This document shows positions 13,645 to 20,942 of a stretch of 29,772 nucleotides of DNA, in pieces; within the stretch, counting starts at the first letter, position 1; every line of letters begins with the position of its first letter. The DNA is taken from the IMG/VR virus record IMGVR_UViG_3300042542_002054, positions 1-29,772 of that record; one strand, 5' to 3'. Below the pieces are notes generated by a model, which searched no databases, was not told the origin of the DNA, and worked only from the letters and a program-made list of their open reading frames with translations. This DNA is from a virus. The translations under genes were made by a program, and so were the position numbers.

Positions 13645-16173
13645 ATGGCTTCCGAAATTACATTAATAGTTGATAAAGGTATTATTGGACCAACTGGTCC
13701 AGCAGGTGCTTCAGGCAGTAATGGTCCAACAGGGCCAACGGGAACTGCTGGCGTTTCAATTACAGGTCCAACGGGAGCAACTGGTCCTACTGGCGCAGCT
13801 TCTTCTATACCAGGTCCTACAGGTCCAAGTGGCACAGGCCCAACAGGCGCAACTGGACCGACAGGACCACAAGGCGCAATTGGACCAACAGGGTCACAAG
13901 GTGTTCAAGGATTACAAGGCGTTCAAGGAAATGCTGGCCCAACTGGGCCGACAGGAAATGTTGGAGCAACAGGATCAATAGGCGCAACAGGCCCAACAGG
14001 GGCTGCTTCTACAATAGCAGGACCAACTGGACCTAGCGGAACTGGACCTACTGGCGCTCAAGGTAATAATGGTCCAACAGGCCCTCAAGGAATTCAAGGG
14101 ATACAAGGTGATGTAGGTCCAACTGGCTCTGCTGGGTTAAACGGACCAACAGGATCACAAGGTGCAATAGGAGCTACTGGACCAACGGGCGCACAAGGTA
14201 ATGTTGGCGCAACAGGTCCACAAGGGATACAAGGCGAACAAGGTGTTCAAGGCAATGTAGGTCCTACTGGCGCTCAAGGAAATTCAATAACAGGTCCTAC
14301 AGGTCCTACAGGGGCAGCATCTACTATTGCTGGTCCTACAGGCGCGGCAGGAACAAATGGAAGCGTAGGGCCAACAGGACCTACTGGCGCTGAAGGTGCA
14401 GCATCTACTATTGCTGGTCCTACTGGTCCTCAAGGCATTCAAGGCATACAGGGCATTCAAGGCGATATTGGCCCTACAGGTCCAACAGGAAGTATTGGCA
14501 ATACAGGACCAACTGGAGCAGCATCAACTGTTCAAGGGCCAACAGGACCAACAGGAAGTAATGGTGAAACTGGACCTACAGGTGCAAACGGAAATGTTGG
14601 AGCTAATGGACCTACTGGACCAACAGGAAGTAATGGCGCAGTAGGAGCTACAGGACCTACAGGCGCTCAAGGTGCTGATGGCGTATCATCAAGCTATTAT
14701 CAATATCAAGCTGATACAAGTCAAACGAGCGGAACTCCAACAAGCGGTCATGTTTATTGGAATAATGCAACTCAAACTTCGGCAACAAATCTTACATTTA
14801 GTCATTTAACATCTAATGGTGTTGATGTTGATGTGTTTTTAGGTATCTTAAAAACAAATGATGTTCTTATTTTACAAGATGAAAGCAACTCTGCAAATTA
14901 TCAAAAATGGTTAGTTATAGGAACTCCAACAATTGTTGCTAATACTTCTATTACTGTTCCTGTATCTTTAACTACTTCCGAAGGAACAGGAACAACTGGC
15001 TATGCAAATAACCATAACTTAATTGCTATTATCCAGTCAGTAGGCGTTACAGGACCGACAGGACCACAAGGCGCAATTGGACCAACAGGGTCACAAGGTG
15101 CAGTTGGCCCTACAGGAAGTCAGGGCGAGCAAGGTGTTGTTGGACCTACAGGTCCTCAAGGCATTGTTGGACCAACGGGCGCGCAAGGTGATACAGGGCC
15201 TACAGGATCAGTAGGACCAACAGGACCGACAGGTTCTCAAGGCATACAAGGCAACATTGGACCTACAGGGCCACAAGGCATTCAAGGAATACAAGGTGAA
15301 GTTGGTGCAATAGGACCGACAGGACCTACAGGCACAATAGGAAATACTGGCGTTCAAGGACCTACAGGCCCAACAGGTAATACAGGCGCAGTAGGACCGA
15401 CAGGTAGTCAAGGCGACATTGGAGCTACAGGCCCAACGGGTTCTATTGGAGCAGTAGGGCCAACTGGACCACAAGGCATACAAGGAATTCAAGGTATTCA
15501 AGGTGAAGTAGGACCAACTGGCCCACAAGGAATACAAGGGGATGTAGGCCCAACTGGACCAACGGGAACTGCTGGTTCAAATGGAAGTGTTGGACCAACA
15601 GGACCTACGGGAGCGCAAGGTATTCAAGGTATTCAAGGTGTGCAAGGTGATATTGGCCCTACAGGACCTACAGGAAGTCAAGGAAATGTAGGAGCGGGTG
15701 GACCAACTGGCCCAACTGGATCAACTGGAGCTGCTTCTACAGTTGCTGGCCCAACAGGACCTACAGGAAGCACAGGCGATACGGGAGCTGGCGGACCGAC
15801 AGGACCACAAGGCATACAAGGAATTCAAGGTATTCAAGGTAATAATGGACCGACAGGACCGACAGGAAATGCTGGAAGCACAGGTGCAGTAGGACCTACA
15901 GGCCCAACTGGAAGTAATGGAAGTAACGGACCTACAGGACCTACAGGAACTAGCGGATCAACTTTATTTACTTACGATCAATTTACTGCAACTGCCGCAC
16001 AAACTACATTTACAACATCTCAAACTTATGTTTCAGGTAAGATAAGTGTATATTTGCAAGGTGTTTTAATGAGAAACGGATCGGATGTGACTGTAACAAG
16101 CGGAACATCTATTGTATTTGCAACAGGATTATCGGCGGGGCAATTAGTGGATGCAGCATATCCAAAAGTATAA
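13645..16173 (+). CDS. Collagen-like tail fibre with Gly-Pro-Thr repeats
   Basis: 842 aa. A short N-terminal cap ([17 protein letters not shown]) is followed by Gly-X-Y repeats, with Gly-Pro-Thr dominant, also GIQ-GIQ and GAQ, from about residue 15 to 347. Then comes a globular domain of about 120 residues (348-466), a second Gly-X-Y run (about 467-770) and a C-terminal beta domain ([20 protein letters not shown] to the end). The two triplet runs have a few breaks ([18 protein letters not shown]), which add flexible joints. This is a triple-helical, trimeric phage fibre. The repeats are also DNA repeats (see findings). The GPT triplet with Thr at Y is the sort that carries O-glycans in bacterial exosporium collagens, and a glycosyltransferase gene follows after 20 bases. 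Confidence 0.9.
13855..15100 (+). repeat. Exact 49-bp direct repeat pair in the collagen gene
   Basis: The 49 bases at 13855-13903 and 15052-15100 are identical, beginning GGACCGACAGG and ending ACAAGGTG. They lie on either side of the globular domain in the fibre gene and in the same reading frame: offset 1197 bases = 399 codons. Homologous exchange would delete about 400 residues in frame. Many shorter repeats are also present. Confidence 0.75.
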
Positions 16174-16193
16174 TTAACAATAAAGGATAAGAT

Positions 16194-17240
16194 ATGAAAA
16201 TAGCGGTATATGCTATAAGCAAAAATGAAGAACAATTTGTAAAAAGATTCTGTGAATCAGCTAAAGATGCAGATTTAATTCTTATAGCTGACACAGGATC
16301 AACAGACAATACTGTTCAATTATCTAAAGACTTTGGCGCTACTGTTTATGATATAGCAATTACACCCTGGCGATTTGATAAAGCTCGCGATGCAGCATTA
16401 GCACTTATTCCTAAAGATTATGATATTTGTATATCACTTGATCTTGATGAAGAACTGCAACCAGGTTGGCGCGAAGAAATAGAACGAGTATGGAAAGATG
16501 ATACAACTCGATTAAGATACAAGTTTGATTGGGGTCAAGGTATTGCTTTCTATTACGAAAAAATTCATGCTAGACATGGTTATCATTGGCATCATCCTTG
16601 CCATGAATATCCAGTAGCAGATAAAAGAATTACAGAGGTATGGGCGCAAACAGATATGCTGCTTGTAATCCATAAACCTGATCCAAGTAAATCAAGAGGA
16701 CAATACCTTGATTTATTATTATTGGCGGTTACTGAAGACCCTAGATGCCCTAGAAATGCTTTTTATTATGCAAGGGAATTAACCTTTTATAGTAAATGGC
16801 TTGATGCAGTAGCGGCTTTAAACAAGTATTTAGATATGCCTGAAGCTACTTGGCCTAATGAAAGATGTTATGCCATGAGATTGTTAGGTAAATGCTATGA
16901 CGCATTAGGTCAGAATGGCATTGAATGGTTTAAGAAAGCTTGTAAAGAAGCGCCTAATACTCGCGAACCTTATATTGAATTAGCTGAATCATATATGGCT
17001 AAAAATATGTGGCGCGAATGTTATGAAGCTGCATTAAAAGCATTAGACATTAAAGACAAAGCTTTAGTTTATACAATGCGACCTGATGTATGGGGTGCAT
17101 TACCGCATGATCTTATTGCTTTATCTGCATATTATTTAGATATGAAGTGTGAAGCGCAACATCATGGTGAAATTGCAGTAGAATTAGAACCTAACAATGA
17201 AAGGCTAAAAACCAATCTTGAGTTCTATAGAAACGATTGA
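16194..17240 (+). CDS. Family 2 glycosyltransferase with TPR-like C-terminus
   Basis: 348 aa, AAGGATAAGAT ribosome binding site. The GT-A fold start MKIAVYAISKNEEQFVKRFC and the nucleotide-binding ILIADTGSTDNTVQL (about 29-43) are followed by the metal-binding D-L-D at residues 83-85 in CISLDLDEEL. Later ARHGYHWHHPCHEYPV matches the acceptor loop of tail-linked GT2 proteins. The C-terminal half (from about residue 200) is a helix-repeat region (NERCYAMRLLGKCYDALGQNGIEWFKKACKEAPNTREPYIELAESY) of TPR type, which could bind a protein substrate. Placed 20 bases after the collagen-like fibre gene. Likely acceptors are Thr side chains of the GPT repeats, or lipopolysaccharide/wall glycan of the host, as for other phage glycosyltransferases. 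Confidence 0.85.
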   Translation: MKIAVYAISKNEEQFVKRFCESAKDADLILIADTGSTDNTVQLSKDFGATVYDIAITPWRFDKARDAALALIPKDYDICISLDLDEELQPGWREEIERVWKDDTTRLRYKFDWGQGIAFYYEKIHARHGYHWHHPCHEYPVADKRITEVWAQTDMLLVIHKPDPSKSRGQYLDLLLLAVTEDPRCPRNAFYYARELTFYSKWLDAVAALNKYLDMPEATWPNERCYAMRLLGKCYDALGQNGIEWFKKACKEAPNTREPYIELAESYMAKNMWRECYEAALKALDIKDKALVYTMRPDVWGALPHDLIALSAYYLDMKCEAQHHGEIAVELEPNNERLKTNLEFYRND

Positions 17241-17403
17241 TGACCACTTTGATTTTCTACAAAATAAAACAATCAAAGATATTGGCTCTGATAGTTACGA
17301 TGGTAAAAATTATTTGGTTATTTTACTATCTGATGGTTCTATCTGCTATATATCTTCTAGCGACAGTTTGTTTATGGCTCTCGAGCGCCATCTCATTAAT
17401 TAG
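17218..17403 (+). CDS. Small unknown protein overlapping the glycosyltransferase end
   Basis: 61 aa if started at TTG 17218, which overlaps the last 23 bases of the glycosyltransferase gene; GAAAGG lies 13 bases upstream. No in-frame ATG is available early. The protein has DIGSDSYDGKNYLVILLSDGSICYISS, a beta-hairpin pattern, and no recognised family. The codon use matches that of its neighbours, so I keep it as a real gene of unknown role. Confidence 0.5.
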   Translation: MSSIETIDDHFDFLQNKTIKDIGSDSYDGKNYLVILLSDGSICYISSSDSLFMALERHLIN

Positions 17404-17418
17404 TAGAAAGAAATAGTC

Positions 17419-17580
17419 ATGGATATGCAAGAACATACGAAGCATGTATTAGATACAGTTTCGGGAGTTACAGTTTTAGGAACTGTTATGAAATTTTTAC
17501 CAGCTATTGCAGCAGTTTTATCAATAGTTTGGTATTGTATTAGAATCTATGAATGGGCGCGTTCTAAAGTTAAAAAATAA
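17419..17580 (+). CDS. Small holin-like membrane protein
   Basis: 53 aa, shorter than usual ORF cut-offs. Reads MDMQEHTKHVLDTVSGVTVL, then GTVMKFLPAIAAVLSIVWYC, then IRIYEWARSKVKK. It has an N-terminal hydrophilic head, one membrane segment (about 25-42) and a short basic tail. I know this form (H-x(3)-D-x(3)-GTVLG, LPAIAA, IRIYE) from small phage proteins annotated as class II type holins. It precedes the HNH-type gene by three bases and follows the glycosyltransferase block. Another holin-like protein is encoded at 28471, so which one controls lysis is open. Confidence 0.6.
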   Translation: MDMQEHTKHVLDTVSGVTVLGTVMKFLPAIAAVLSIVWYCIRIYEWARSKVKK

Positions 17581-17583
17581 ACT

Positions 17584-17946
17584 ATGCCTTTAAAAGACAA
17601 AAGTTATAGATGTCAGTATTTAAGAGATTGGAAGTCAAACAATCGAGAAAAGAATTTATTTCAACAAGCTCGATACAGAGCAAAAACTAAAAACATTTCG
17701 TTTGATATAGAAGTATCAGACATAGTTATTCCTGAAACTTGTCCCATTTTGGGACTTCCTCTAAAAAAAACCATTGATGGAAATCGAGATTTAAGTCCTA
17801 GCCTTGATCGTATAGATAATGCTAAAGGTTACATAAAAGGCAATATTCAAGTAATATCAGCAAAAGCTAATACAATGAAACATAATGCAGATAAAGAAGA
17901 TTTAATTAACTTTTCTAATTGGGTGAAAGAAAATTATGGCAAATAA
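17584..17946 (+). CDS. HNH-type endonuclease (homing or packaging-associated)
   Basis: 120 aa. The segment SPSLDRIDNAKGYIKGNIQVISAKANTMKHNAD (about residues 71-103) is the signature of a phage HNH nuclease subfamily (S-x-D-R-I-D-N, G-Y-x-x-x-N-x-Q-V, A-N-x-M-K). The preceding ETCPILGLPL replaces the usual Zn-binding CP-x(n)-C segment with only one Cys. Such genes are often free-standing homing endonucleases, or help packaging when placed next to terminase genes. Here it sits at the end of the late region. ATG with only a weak ribosome binding site (AAAATAAACT), so it may be read from upstream coupling. Confidence 0.75.
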   Translation: MPLKDKSYRCQYLRDWKSNNREKNLFQQARYRAKTKNISFDIEVSDIVIPETCPILGLPLKKTIDGNRDLSPSLDRIDNAKGYIKGNIQVISAKANTMKHNADKEDLINFSNWVKENYGK

Positions 17947-18151
17947 ATATAGTGAAGCTGGCAAGGGATCAACCAATAAGCTTAAACAAAAAAGCTTGTA
18001 TGATGAGAACTACGAAAAGATTTGGGGCAATAAAAAGAATAAGCTTTATGAAGAACGATATTATGATTCTGATGAAACAACTTCATGGGATCAAGATAAG
18101 GCTGATATGATTGGTCTTAATAACAATACTGGCGATCATTATATTAAATGA
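17936..18151 (+). CDS. Small conserved-looking phage protein (GKGS family), unknown
   Basis: 71 aa, overlapping the HNH gene by 11 bases. Starts MANKYSEAGKGSTNKLKQKS and contains YDENYEKIWGNKKNKLYEE. Very charged and hydrophilic. I know similar small proteins ('GKGS..R....Y.ENY..IWG') from other phage genomes but no function is assigned. It is the last rightward gene before the convergent terminator, and thus the last of the late transcript. Confidence 0.65.
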   Translation: MANKYSEAGKGSTNKLKQKSLYDENYEKIWGNKKNKLYEERYYDSDETTSWDQDKADMIGLNNNTGDHYIK

Positions 18152-18178
18152 TGTCATAATTGATATTATATCGTATTA

Positions 18179-18198
18179 ATGTAAAGCATACTTTACAT
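18179..18198. repeat. 8-bp perfect inverted repeat (operator or weak terminator)
   Basis: ATGTAAAG-CATA-CTTTACAT reads as an inverted repeat with 8-bp arms and a 4-base spacer, 27 bases after the last rightward gene. It could be a protein-binding site or an AT-rich hairpin. A TTTT follows four bases later on the plus strand (CCGTTTTC), so a weak rightward terminator is possible. Confidence 0.5.
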
Positions 18199-18265
18199 CC
18201 GTTTTCATTCAAATCATTGATTTATATAAAAAAAGTGAAAACAATTTGCATGAAACTTTAATAAA

Positions 18266-18288
18266 AAAGGGGCATTTTAAGCCCCTTT
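18266..18288. terminator. Bidirectional intrinsic terminator at convergent transcripts
   Basis: An 8-bp stem AAAGGGGC (18266-18273) and GCCCCTTT (18281-18288) flanks a 7-base loop. Read leftward, the stem is followed by TTT TTA (six T), a textbook terminator for the minus-strand operon. Read rightward, the T run is shorter (TTTCTT) but still usable. It lies between the rightward late genes and the leftward pqqA operon. Confidence 0.85.
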
Positions 18289-18299
18289 CTTACAAGCAA

Positions 18300-18314
18300 G
18301 GCTACCATCTAGCC
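18300..18314. repeat. Small hairpin GGCTA-CCATC-TAGCC
   Basis: A 5-bp perfect stem with a 5-base loop lies between pqqA and the terminator. On the minus strand it follows a run of six G. It might protect the 3' end of the pqqA transcript or take part in termination. The function is not known. Confidence 0.4.
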
Positions 18315-18331
18315 CCCCTCATTTAAAGCTA

Positions 18332-18403
18332 CTATTTATTCATTACATACATAGTAACTTCAAAACCAAATCTCATTTCTGTAGCTGCTGGAGTTGTCCA
18401 CAT
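18332..18403 (-). CDS. pqqA: PqqA, coenzyme PQQ biosynthesis precursor peptide
   Basis: 23 codons read on the minus strand: ATG at 18403, TAG at 18332-18334, with the ribosome binding site AAAGGGGAAATATT. The peptide starts M-W-T-T-P-A-A-T-E-M-R-F-G and ends F-E-V-T-M-Y-V-M-N-K. It matches the PqqA consensus M-W-x-x-P-A-x-x-(D/E)-(L/M)-R-x-G-x-E-V-T-x-Y at every conserved place, and at 23 aa it equals the classic length. E15 and Y19 are the two residues that PqqE cross-links and that become the PQQ skeleton. PqqB-E are not in this window, so the host would have to process it. It is the last gene of the leftward operon, just before the terminator. Below size limits of gene finders, hence easily missed. 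Confidence 0.9.
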   Translation of the reverse strand: MWTTPAATEMRFGFEVTMYVMNK

Positions 18404-18479
18404 AATATTTCCCCTTTAATTAATAAATACTGCAAATTAATTATGGGCTACATTGTGGCTTACGCCATCAGTAAAATCA
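18404..18479 (-). other. Leader region of pqqA
   Basis: 76 non-coding bases between the SSB-like gene and pqqA in an operon otherwise packed with overlaps. It holds a small stem TGGC-GTAA-GCCA (18456-18467 on the minus strand) and the Shine-Dalgarno AAAGGGG. The gap may give pqqA its own promoter or RNA-level control, but no clear -35/-10 pair was seen. Confidence 0.35.
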
Positions 18480-18716
18480 TTAAAATGGCATTGCTGAATC
18501 AGTTGCATTTGAACTTGATCCTGCACCATCTTTAGCTTGTGGCTCTCTCATTGTTACCCAGCCGTCAAAATTGACAGGGATAGATTCTATGAGAAGTGAA
18601 GTGCCACCTTGTTTATTGCTCATTGCCACACCTACTTTTTGCCATCTAGCTTTTGTTTCGCCATTAGCGTTAGTGTATTCGCCTGTTTTAGCGATTAGAT
18701 CATGGGTTATTGCCAT
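18480..18716 (-). CDS. Small SSB-like protein with acidic Pro-Phe C-terminal tip
   Basis: 78 aa. Starts MAITHDLIAKTGEYTNANGETKARWQKVGVAM with alternating strands (KVGVAMSNKQGGTSLLIESIPV), consistent with a small OB-like or beta barrel. The C-terminal part is disordered and Gly/Ser-rich (PQAKDGAGSSSNATDSAMPF) and ends in D-S-A-M-P-F, closely like the D-D-D-I-P-F tip of bacterial SSB that recruits partner proteins. It overlaps the exonuclease gene by 17 bases (start within its end). A single-strand binding partner of the ERF/YqaJ recombination pair is the natural role, inferred rather than proven by family match. Confidence 0.6.
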   Translation of the reverse strand: MAITHDLIAKTGEYTNANGETKARWQKVGVAMSNKQGGTSLLIESIPVNFDGWVTMREPQAKDGAGSSSNATDSAMPF

Positions 18717-19374
18717 TTTTTATTTCCTTTAAGTTATTTACGATAGTTTCTATTTCAGACAAAAAGGCGATCACCGCATTTTGCATGTTATTAATATACT
18801 CATCATCTCGATAAATACGCTTTACGAATCCTTGTAAATGATCAGGCATTTCAGGATCATAAGATACAAGGTCGCAAAATTCTCTTTTTTCATTTCCATT
18901 AGAACCAGGAACGCAAGCCAATTGCCATTGCACCTGATCATAATACTGTTCTAATTGTTTACCGCCTGTTAGGATGTTATCTAAATGGTTTTCGGGATTA
19001 GGTATCTTAATTTCAATTAAAGAATTAGTAGCTTCTACTAACCCGTCAGGGCTACATTGAGCGCCGTCAATGAATGGGTGTAAAACAATTGCTACTTGAT
19101 CCACAAAGGTATTATATTTAACTTCATACCATGCCCTAGCCATAGGTTCTAAATCGATTCCTCGTTGCATTGCAGGCGTTTTATAGGTATCTAATTTCTT
19201 ACCCGTCAATCTTTCTCTAATCAATTCATTCTTATACTTTTTACGAGTTAAAGATTCAGCGCCACCTCGACCTTCAGTTAAAAGATCAGCAACTCTTGAG
19301 CCACCAATCTTGCCTATTCTTAAAGCCATCCATTCAGGACTGCCTTGCTCTATGCCTTTTATTATTCTATCCAT
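18700..19374 (-). CDS. YqaJ-type recombination exonuclease
   Basis: 224 aa. The lambda-exonuclease/YqaJ motifs are in order: QGSPEWMALRIGKIGGSRVADLL (residues 10-32), RGIDLEPMARAWYE (71-84), D110 in CSPDGLVE (107-114) and E121-I-K123 in LIEIKIPNP, which together form the PD-(D/E)XK active site, then YYDQVQWQLAC (about 143-153). It degrades one strand of double-stranded DNA ends to give 3' overhangs, for annealing by the ERF protein encoded upstream. The start codon lies within the end of the preceding gene (8-base overlap). Part of the leftward early operon. Good match to the family's usual length (about 200-230). Confidence 0.9.
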   Translation of the reverse strand: MDRIIKGIEQGSPEWMALRIGKIGGSRVADLLTEGRGGAESLTRKKYKNELIRERLTGKKLDTYKTPAMQRGIDLEPMARAWYEVKYNTFVDQVAIVLHPFIDGAQCSPDGLVEATNSLIEIKIPNPENHLDNILTGGKQLEQYYDQVQWQLACVPGSNGNEKREFCDLVSYDPEMPDHLQGFVKRIYRDDEYINNMQNAVIAFLSEIETIVNNLKEIKNGNNP

Positions 19375-19804
19375 TTAAGTTTAAGTTCCTATAAGTTACG
19401 CCATCGTGCCATTGTTGGTCGGTTGTTTTGTCATAAAGACCTATTACTTTATCGGGATGAAGAAGCAAAGGCTTTTGATCTTTAAAGCAAAATGCATATA
19501 GCAAAGGACATCTTTCAGAGCTATACCATTCCATAAACATTGGAAGCATTTTAATTTCTGAAGCTTTAATATTGGCAGTTCCCTTAACCATTATTAACCC
19601 AGCTTTACCATTATTGTTAATATAAAAATCAGGCATATTTCTAATAAAAGTATTTAAGTCGTAAAAGTTAGGGATAGGATCGTTCTTCTCATCAAAGCCT
19701 AATCGCCTATAAAAATAACCTTTAGATTGACAATAAGCTTCAAACAATACTTCCGCTATATTAACGACATTATTTCTTTCTTTATAAGAATATGCGCCAT
19801 TCAT
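19367..19804 (-). CDS. Degenerate PD-(D/E)XK-like protein
   Basis: 145 aa. N-terminal helix (VVNIAEVLFEAYCQSKGYFYRRLGF) followed by IRNMPDFYINNNGKAGLIMVKGTANIKASE. The P58-D59 ... x-V-K74-G is the arrangement of PD-(D/E)XK nucleases, but the acidic residue two before the Lys is Met (M72-V-K74), so the classic active site is incomplete. The start ATG overlaps the stop of the 57-aa gene upstream (ATGA), the stop lies within the YqaJ gene start. Probably a DNA end-processing or resolvase-related factor of the recombination operon, possibly non-catalytic. Alternative: an unrelated fold with a chance motif. Confidence 0.55.
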   Translation of the reverse strand: MNGAYSYKERNNVVNIAEVLFEAYCQSKGYFYRRLGFDEKNDPIPNFYDLNTFIRNMPDFYINNNGKAGLIMVKGTANIKASEIKMLPMFMEWYSSERCPLLYAFCFKDQKPLLLHPDKVIGLYDKTTDQQWHDGVTYRNLNLNG

Positions 19805-19974
19805 AGTTTAGGGCTTTGAATTTTGCCATAAAGAGGGGCTAATAAATATTTATCACCCATCTCTCTTTTAAGCCTTTGAATCTTTGTTCTGCGAGCTTCT
19901 ATTTCTTCTATTTCTTCAAAGGTATATTTAAATTCAACGCCATAAAAATTACTGTTTCTCATGCCTTCCATCAT
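19801..19974 (-). CDS. 57-aa early protein missed by size filters, unknown
   Basis: Minus-strand frame from ATG 19974 to TGA 19801. It overlaps the ERF stop by ATGA at its start and the next gene's ATG by ATGA at its end, so it fills the only apparent gap in this part of the operon. The protein starts MMEGMRNSNFYGVEFKYTFE, has a charged helix EEIEEIEARRTKIQRLKREM, and ends DKYLLAPLYGKIQSPKL. Function unknown. Both couplings make it very likely that it is translated. Confidence 0.75.
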   Translation of the reverse strand: MMEGMRNSNFYGVEFKYTFEEIEEIEARRTKIQRLKREMGDKYLLAPLYGKIQSPKL

Positions 19975-20513
19975 AGCTCCGCCTTTCTTTTATCTTTAGC
20001 TTCAATAACTAATTTAGATAGAGTTCGATCATTCTTAACTTCGCCCATAACAAAATTATAATTAGACTGTAGTTCTTCTAATGACTGTGATTGACTAATT
20101 CTTTGAAGATAGTCGGCTGCATTAAGAACTGCGGATTGGCCATCATCATCGTCTGCATAAAGCAAGCACAATGCAGAAATCGAGTATCTGCGAATGTAGC
20201 TTGTGGCCGAAGCCAATCCCTGTGGATCTTGCTTTTGAATAGGGCAGACGGCAGTATCTTCCAACCACTCGCCCGAGCTATGAAGTAACCTCGTTGTTAG
20301 GTGAAGTTTATTGTCGTCTGAAGGGCTTAATGATTGAAGGATAGCAATACCATTATTATTGAGTGGCGCTTTAACGGCATCAATAACTGAATTGATATTG
20401 GCATACTTGGATTTGTAATGAGGATTAGTTGAATCTTTAACGGCAAATCTAATTTCTTTTTGCGCGGATACTAAAGCTTCAGCTATCTGTTTGATGCTTT
20501 CGGATGTTTTCAT
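19971..20513 (-). CDS. erf: ERF-family single-strand annealing protein
   Basis: 180 aa, ribosome binding site AGGACAAGATAAG. N-terminal helix (SESIKQIAEALVSAQKEI) and NPHYKSKYANINSVIDAVKAPLNNNGIAILQS (about residues 30-61), then DPQGLASATSYIRRYSISALCLLYADDDDG (about 96-125), the classic ERF motif (G-x-A-x-T-Y-x-R-R-Y, D-D-D). ERF proteins anneal complementary single strands and work with an exonuclease such as the YqaJ protein encoded two genes downstream. Length is that of the core domain plus a short tail. It is followed by a gene overlapping its stop (ATGA). Confidence 0.92.
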   Translation of the reverse strand: MKTSESIKQIAEALVSAQKEIRFAVKDSTNPHYKSKYANINSVIDAVKAPLNNNGIAILQSLSPSDDNKLHLTTRLLHSSGEWLEDTAVCPIQKQDPQGLASATSYIRRYSISALCLLYADDDDGQSAVLNAADYLQRISQSQSLEELQSNYNFVMGEVKNDRTLSKLVIEAKDKRKAEL

Positions 20514-20537
20514 CTTATCTTGTCCTAAAAAGTTTCG

Positions 20538-20942
20538 TTAAATTACATGCGAGATTGTATCATTATATGCCCATCTTGCAAAACTATCTCTTTCATAGTT
20601 TTCAGCTATGAATTTTGCTAGTCTTTTAATTTCCGCATCGTATAAATCTTTAATGCGGCCAATCTTATCATCCTGACGATCATAAAGAATATTTTTTACT
20701 TGATTCTGAAGTTCAATCTCATCGTAAAAATCAGAAAATACTTCAGCGTTAAAAGTAATATGATGCTCAATAAGCTCTTGTAAAGAGATATGAGGTTCTA
20801 GGTCTAAAAAATCAGGATCAGGATTCATCATAGTTTGAATATGAATCTTGTGTTGCATCTCTCGTTGCTGGTCACTCATGGAAGCTCCCGTAACTTGTTG
20901 ATTTGTGCTTATTTTATCCTTATCTTCTTGATTAGGCAACAT
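20538..20942 (-). CDS. Early operon protein, unknown, helical and acidic
   Basis: 134 aa from ATG 20942 (GGGGA eight bases upstream). An inner start at ATG 20879 has a good ribosome binding site too (CGGGAGCTTCC), giving 113 aa, and either may be right. The sequence is acidic and helical (DFLDLEPHISLQELIEHHITFNAEVFSDFYDEIEL), ending with basic residues. No family recognised. Its start overlaps the preceding gene by 11 bases, consistent with operon coupling. Early function unknown. Confidence 0.6.
   Translation of the reverse strand: MLPNQEDKDKISTNQQVTGASMSDQQREMQHKIHIQTMMNPDPDFLDLEPHISLQELIEHHITFNAEVFSDFYDEIELQNQVKNILYDRQDDKIGRIKDLYDAEIKRLAKFIAENYERDSFARWAYNDTISHVI

Follow-up and report, generated by a model that had tools for sequence, protein, structure and literature searches.

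What is a 23-codon frame resembling pqqA, the gene for the precursor peptide of PQQ, doing in a phage genome, and under whose control would it be expressed during infection? PqqD binds the PqqA peptide, and PqqE then introduces a cross-link between its residues E15 and Y19, the two that become PQQ. The hosts concerned here, the Methylophilaceae, are important methanol consumers in lakes and coastal seas. The window, by which we mean the whole 29,772-base stretch of viral DNA that was analysed, is a virus record related to Methylophilaceae phage P19250A, and 72% of its region 16150-20550 aligns to that phage, with 83% identity. Tail, lysis and recombination genes were recognized in the window by PHROG and Pfam matches, which places pqqA within a phage genome.

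First, the identity of the frame is almost certain: it is pqqA. An earlier note made from the letters alone had located it at 18332-18403, and these coordinates are correct; the strand, unstated there, is minus. Read on the plus strand, the same interval gives a translation without PqqA, and the minus strand gives MWTTPAATEMRFGFEVTMYVMNK followed by a stop codon. The proposed fit to PqqA was borne out by profile searches, with scores far over the cut-offs for both PF08042 (40.3 bits; cut-off, 21.1; E value, 3e-10) and TIGR02107 (38.8 bits; cut-off, 20; E value, 5.6e-10). The peptide contains the E-x-x-x-Y pair (E15 and Y19) together with the conserved W, P, R, and G residues, and the 18403-18332 frame is the sole PqqA match within the virus record. 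The ribosome binding site, the 76-base leader and the position before a terminator, all claimed in the earlier note, were likewise found in the window: AAAGGGG precedes the ATG, 76 nt separate the stop codon of an ssb-like gene from that ATG, and a hairpin with a T-run follows the gene (Table 1). Relatives have an AAGG/GGAG-type ribosome binding site at the matching place, and the terminator is conserved among relatives both with and without pqqA; a generic terminator scan did not list the 18263..18287 hairpin. A small open reading frame 3′ of pqqA (ATG near 18310) was dropped because the interval downstream of pqqA is not conserved in relatives. An Rfam search of the pqqA region returned matches below gathering scores only, and the RNA of the leader and coding sequence had no unusual structure (z, +1.42).

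Table 1. Features of the pqqA cassette and its operon in the window
Feature	Position	Strand	Basis or remark
Erf-type single-strand annealing protein, same operon	19971..20513	minus	PF04404, 78.8 bits; phrog_2324
YqaJ-type recombination exonuclease	18700..19374	minus	PF09588, 68.9 bits; phrog_149
ssb-like gene, 78 aa, ends ...SAMPF (relatives ...DLPF)	18480..18716	minus	position conserved
Host-type pqqA regulatory motif (candidate), TAATGATTTTACTGAT	18467..18482	minus	host-trained matrix score 16.3; perfect match to TMATGRTTTTACTKA
-10 box (predicted), CATAAT	18440..18445	minus	21 nt after motif core
Ribosome binding site, AAAGGGG	18411..18417	minus	ATG 7 nt downstream; read from sequence
pqqA coding sequence, 23 codons + TAG	18332..18403	minus	peptide MWTTPAATEMRFGFEVTMYVMNK; PqqA models and conservation in relatives
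Intrinsic terminator, AAGGGGC ttaaaat GCCCCTT + T-run	18263..18287	minus	fold -14.8 kcal/mol, z -2.49

The erf, YqaJ exonuclease and ssb-like genes lie upstream of pqqA and run in the same direction. The ssb-like gene has a weak match to PHROG 37570, a PHROG of unknown function, and a Pfam search with it gave no match; in phage record ctXG6705, the neighbor gene of the exonuclease is annotated as a putative SSB. P19250A-like siphophages (KX815270) share the gene order recombinase (ERF), exonuclease, ssb-like gene, pqqA, and the PqqA peptide of P19250A is identical to that of the window. P19250A differs in that its pqqA is not annotated and its leader sequence departs from that of the window after the motif described below. 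The P19250A gene at the exonuclease position, P19250A_0031, which matches the YqaJ region of the window, is publicly annotated as a diguanylate cyclase/phosphodiesterase, an annotation that looks wrong. Elsewhere in the window, 13645-16173 encodes an 842-aa protein with collagen-like GPTGPTG repeats, probably a tail fiber, and 17584-17946 holds an endonuclease-type gene with weaker similarity to the Srd anti-sigma and sigma70-decoy families.

To measure conservation, contigs fetched by the neighboring YqaJ exonuclease were used, because contigs fetched by pqqA itself are biased towards pqqA. This exonuclease-anchored set comprised 80 contigs, 9 of which end too early, leaving 71 informative. 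pqqA was in place in 69 of them, and E15 and Y19 were invariant in all 69. Mean dN was 0.048 against a mean dS of 0.71 (dN/dS, about 0.07), and mean mismatch at codon positions 1, 2, and 3 was 6.5, 3.7, and 23.7%, respectively. Ungapped identity among relatives was 89% within the coding sequence, compared with 43% in the 76 nt before and 37% in the 76 nt after it. pqqA is thus kept by strong purifying selection in related phages. Retention in related contigs, conservation of the E15/Y19 codons and purifying selection had been named in the earlier note as the points on which its proposal could be checked, and on each of them relatives chosen without regard to pqqA sided with the gene. In the two contigs without pqqA (L197 and L249), the terminator follows almost directly after the ssb-like stop codon, and the motif and leader are missing too; therefore, motif, leader and gene are present or absent as one unit. 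The window coding sequence is at least 6 nt from every fetched host coding sequence and has an AGA codon at R11, found in 0 of 72 host coding sequences, so pqqA has probably resided in phages for a long time. The leaders after the motif (window, 18404-18480; relatives, L188-L267) fall into several types that are unrelated to one another and reshuffled between closely related contigs, and the same was seen for the interval between pqqA and the terminator (L188-L267).

The peptide of the window is shared with the putative hosts. It was identical in 98 of 108 fetched host copies, host loci that were chosen by similarity; loci fetched by the peptide are ranked in this way, and identity among them is no measure of constraint. 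The number of pqqA copies per host genome ranged from 1 to 12 across 12 genomes, and most fetched copies had no adjoining pqqB-E. Three to 12 orphan pqqA copies per genome have been reported for Methylophilaceae (PMC4109929). One genome labelled Methylotenera mobilis 13 (G001) had 12 pqqA copies and a pqqA adjoining pqqDE (L180); Table 4 of PMC4109929 lists this pattern under strain 7, and one of the label sets may be swapped.

Next, the sequences upstream of pqqA were analyzed for regulatory signals. An EM search of 88 nonredundant host pqqA upstream regions returned TCATGATTTTACTTAG (log-likelihood, 763; shuffles, 79-84), and a separate EM search of 64 phage upstream regions returned TTaATGaTTTTcttgAT (log-likelihood, 436; shuffles, 64-74). 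With the host matrix, 85 of 88 host regions and 41 of 64 phage regions scored higher than any reversed control, and the other 23 phage cassettes did not. In two later phage sets, only partly independent since they share some contigs with the first set and with each other, scores exceeded 8 in 54 of 78 and 36 of 73 regions, compared with 1 reversed match each. Within 200 nt before pqqA, phage loci had 1.6 motifs per kb with scores above 12, against 0.005 per kb elsewhere, a more than 200-fold higher density. In MEP401/402, Venkman, and ctXG6705, the motif was weak or questionable. A description of the motif was not found in the accessible literature, in which subscription journals are sparsely represented.

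The spacing of the motif is also shared. In hosts, the first half of the motif recurs at a downstream shift of exactly 23 bp (on average, 4.8 of 7 positions match; about 1.9 at other shifts), and the motif core is followed after 44-45 nt by a -10 box in 47 of 85 regions. In phages, the -10 box lies 21-22 nt after the core in 32 of 60, which equals the spacing of the host proximal site (44-45 minus 23); CATAAT occurred at a gap of 21 in 44 of 69 exonuclease-anchored relatives, and the gap in the window is also 21. Phage and host orphan cassettes, most of the latter without pqqB-E beside them, therefore have the same peptide, motif and -10 arrangement, and they differ in that the motif occurs twice in hosts, at a distance of 23 bp, whereas no 23-bp tandem repeat was found in phages, which usually have a single copy at the proximal position. 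As only the proximal site is kept, we call the phage site host-type rather than a full host promoter. Judged by these sequence patterns, a host-type pqqA promoter site very probably lies upstream of phage pqqA. The suggestion that pqqA, having its own leader, may be expressed differently from the recombination genes is sharpened accordingly, in that this leader appears to carry a host-type regulatory site and a -10 box. Transcription would start near 18433, and the motif would then be centered near -41, by analogy with known promoter architecture the place of a class II activator. A generic sigma-70 promoter scan found nothing, and there is no matching -35 box; the missing -35/-10 pair fits the class II activator reading. 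The first three bases of the motif are the stop codon of the ssb-like gene. That the motif is merely part of this gene was rejected because it is absent where pqqA is absent (L197 and L249).

In seven host genomes, 13 of 16 motif matches with at most one mismatch lay within about 250 nt of pqqA. The remaining sites, and one site with two mismatches, were near katG, a glycine-zipper protein gene (in two genomes), and a gene for a possible PQQ-type sugar dehydrogenase (L268-L271), names that are our reading of the translations. Matches with two mismatches have a clear background (reversed-pattern controls, 21 versus 40). A small host regulon that includes katG and other genes is possible on the basis of these sites.

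How widely is pqqA distributed among phages? When 50,697 phage records were searched with the peptide by tblastn, 12 had a match. Nine are named Methylophilales/Methylophilaceae isolates (P19250A, MEP301, Venkman, MEP401, MEP402, and four Melnitz isolates), that is, all those recovered; HIM624-A, MEP431-434, and Venkman EXVC038S are in the taxonomy and were not among the phage-search matches. One further match was ctXG6705. The last two, labelled "Acinetobacter phage MD-2021a," were not accepted as a further type of phage carrying pqqA; the one inspected (L008, CAKLQF020000010) looks like bacterial DNA, with pqqB, pqqC, pqqD, ppk, and a radical SAM gene. None of the seven records opened among the nine isolates and ctXG6705 annotates pqqA, and in the remaining three Melnitz isolates a hypothetical protein is annotated under the match. 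Phage pqqA has probably been missed by annotation because it is only 23 codons long. At least 589 confirmed relatives encoding pqqA were found in an IMG/VR scan, with the same outcome from a second alignment, and a DNA pattern for GFEVTMY alone matched 77 times among newly fetched loci, each time in a PqqA-like sequence. The first 88 viral loci formed 11 groups by shared neighbors (at least two proteins; largest group, 68), a rough lineage count that rests on stretches of up to about 10 kb. The named isolates with pqqA span P19250A-like phages, Zobellviridae (MEP401/402), and a T4-like Kyanoviridae phage (Melnitz). Apart from one mislabelled bacterial contig, no pqqB-E was found in the viral loci tested, indicating that pqqA is not a carried-over operon.

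Collectively, these findings suggest that the window probably contains a functional phage pqqA in a compact, host-regulated cassette that feeds precursor peptide to the host PqqB-E. The cassette would consist of a host-type activator site, a -10 box, a ribosome binding site, the 23-codon gene and a terminator. In an infected Methylophilaceae methylotroph, host RNA polymerase and the host's own putative pqqA regulator would transcribe it, and the phage peptide, identical to host PqqA, would enter cross-linking by host PqqD/PqqE and then PqqB/PqqC as extra substrate. PQQ-dependent methanol dehydrogenase could in this way stay charged after phage takeover. In the established pathway PqqA is consumed, one per PQQ, and therefore it could suffice to replenish this substrate, with the reusable enzymes left to the host. 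The steps that we infer are transcription, regulator binding, translation, processing, a rise in PQQ and a benefit to the phage. Supply of substrate during infection is a good explanation of the gene and probably the correct one, with Methylophilaceae as the likely hosts. It fits the multicopy state of host pqqA (1-12 copies) and a report that PqqA is rate-determining in Methylovorus MP688, as quoted in PMC11317620. In M. extorquens and P. putida, pqqA dosage had little effect on PQQ, as quoted in PMC10112286, so the phage benefit may be host-specific. One isolate study added PQQ to its OM43 medium (PMC9004378), and external PQQ may therefore matter.

The peptide could also be processed as proposed and its product used for something other than methanol dehydrogenase, with PQQ serving as an antioxidant or another dehydrogenase as its user, or with PqqA or PQQ engaged in lanthanide handling. 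katG and the possible PQQ-type sugar dehydrogenase near host motif sites are consistent with such a use, and a lanthanide role for orphan pqqA copies has been raised (PMC11317620). We nevertheless consider it unlikely, as xoxF, which encodes a methanol dehydrogenase, gives rise to the most abundant transcript in an OM43 isolate (PMC5120137), and a Lake Baikal phage carries methanol dehydrogenase alongside PqqA (PMC7678222). It is very improbable that the peptide acts against the host PQQ pathway, as a decoy or an inhibitor, or that its role is unrelated to PQQ; a short peptide could bind PqqD and nothing direct favors the idea, while in a decoy the reactive residues should have been lost or altered, and the phage peptide is identical to that of the host and retains E15 and Y19.

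A different kind of explanation puts the action in the DNA, with phage genome copies titrating a host regulator off host pqqA or other targets and the gene as a passenger. A host-type site would indeed multiply with phage replication, and a few other host genes (katG, the glycine-zipper protein gene, and the possible sugar dehydrogenase gene) have the motif nearby. However, the coding sequence is under strong amino acid constraint, motif-gene order and fixed -10 spacing form a working-promoter arrangement, and some phages have pqqA without a clear motif, which makes titration distinctly improbable. The same constraint bears on the idea that a copy of the multicopy host gene entered the phage recently and neutrally and is without function there. 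Host copies are many and scattered, and six distinct viral coding sequences exactly equal a fetched host coding sequence; retention in 69 of 71 contigs, a dN/dS of about 0.07, and the distance of the window gene from host genes (at least 6 nt, with AGA at R11 in none of 72) render this account extremely improbable. Substrate supply from a host-regulated cassette thus remains our preferred reading. On a bolder form of it we are evenly divided: the cassette may be a near-universal hallmark of Methylophilaceae phages, present in unrelated lineages and listening to the host PQQ regulator, since supply of the consumed precursor would be the methanol-oxidation bottleneck that these phages must relieve.

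A phage pqqA as such is already known; new here are its extent and control. PqqA was described in 2020 in the Lake Baikal T4-like viral population VP_266 (PMC7678222), and pqqA, pqqE, and pqqD are among virus-encoded genes listed from reservoirs (PMC13188868). The main texts of the MEP301, MEP401/402, and Venkman papers do not mention pqq, and the single mention in the Melnitz paper is of PQQ as a medium ingredient. As far as the accessible part of its description extends, VP_266 resembles the window in having a phage PqqA, a predicted Methylophilaceae host and a proposed aid to methanol oxidation; it differs in being T4-like, in also having methanol dehydrogenase, and in being one population for which no regulatory site is reported there. 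The phage of the window, in turn, is P19250A-like and has pqqA alone, and this gene is preceded by a host-type promoter site and widely conserved.

If Methylophilaceae phages generally provide the PQQ precursor under a host switch, pqqA would be among the smallest and most regular auxiliary metabolic genes, and it would offer a simple sequence marker for phages of Methylophilaceae methylotrophs. Two testable questions follow, namely, whether precursor supply limits PQQ in infection and what host regulator recognizes the motif common to hosts and phages. Cyanophages carry psbA, and some cyanophage genes are under host PhoB control. The pqqA cassette resembles these genes in that the phage would provide, under host regulation, the component that a host energy pathway uses up most. 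It differs from psbA in the pathway served and in its product, which is the precursor of a cofactor, is itself consumed, and is only 23 residues long.
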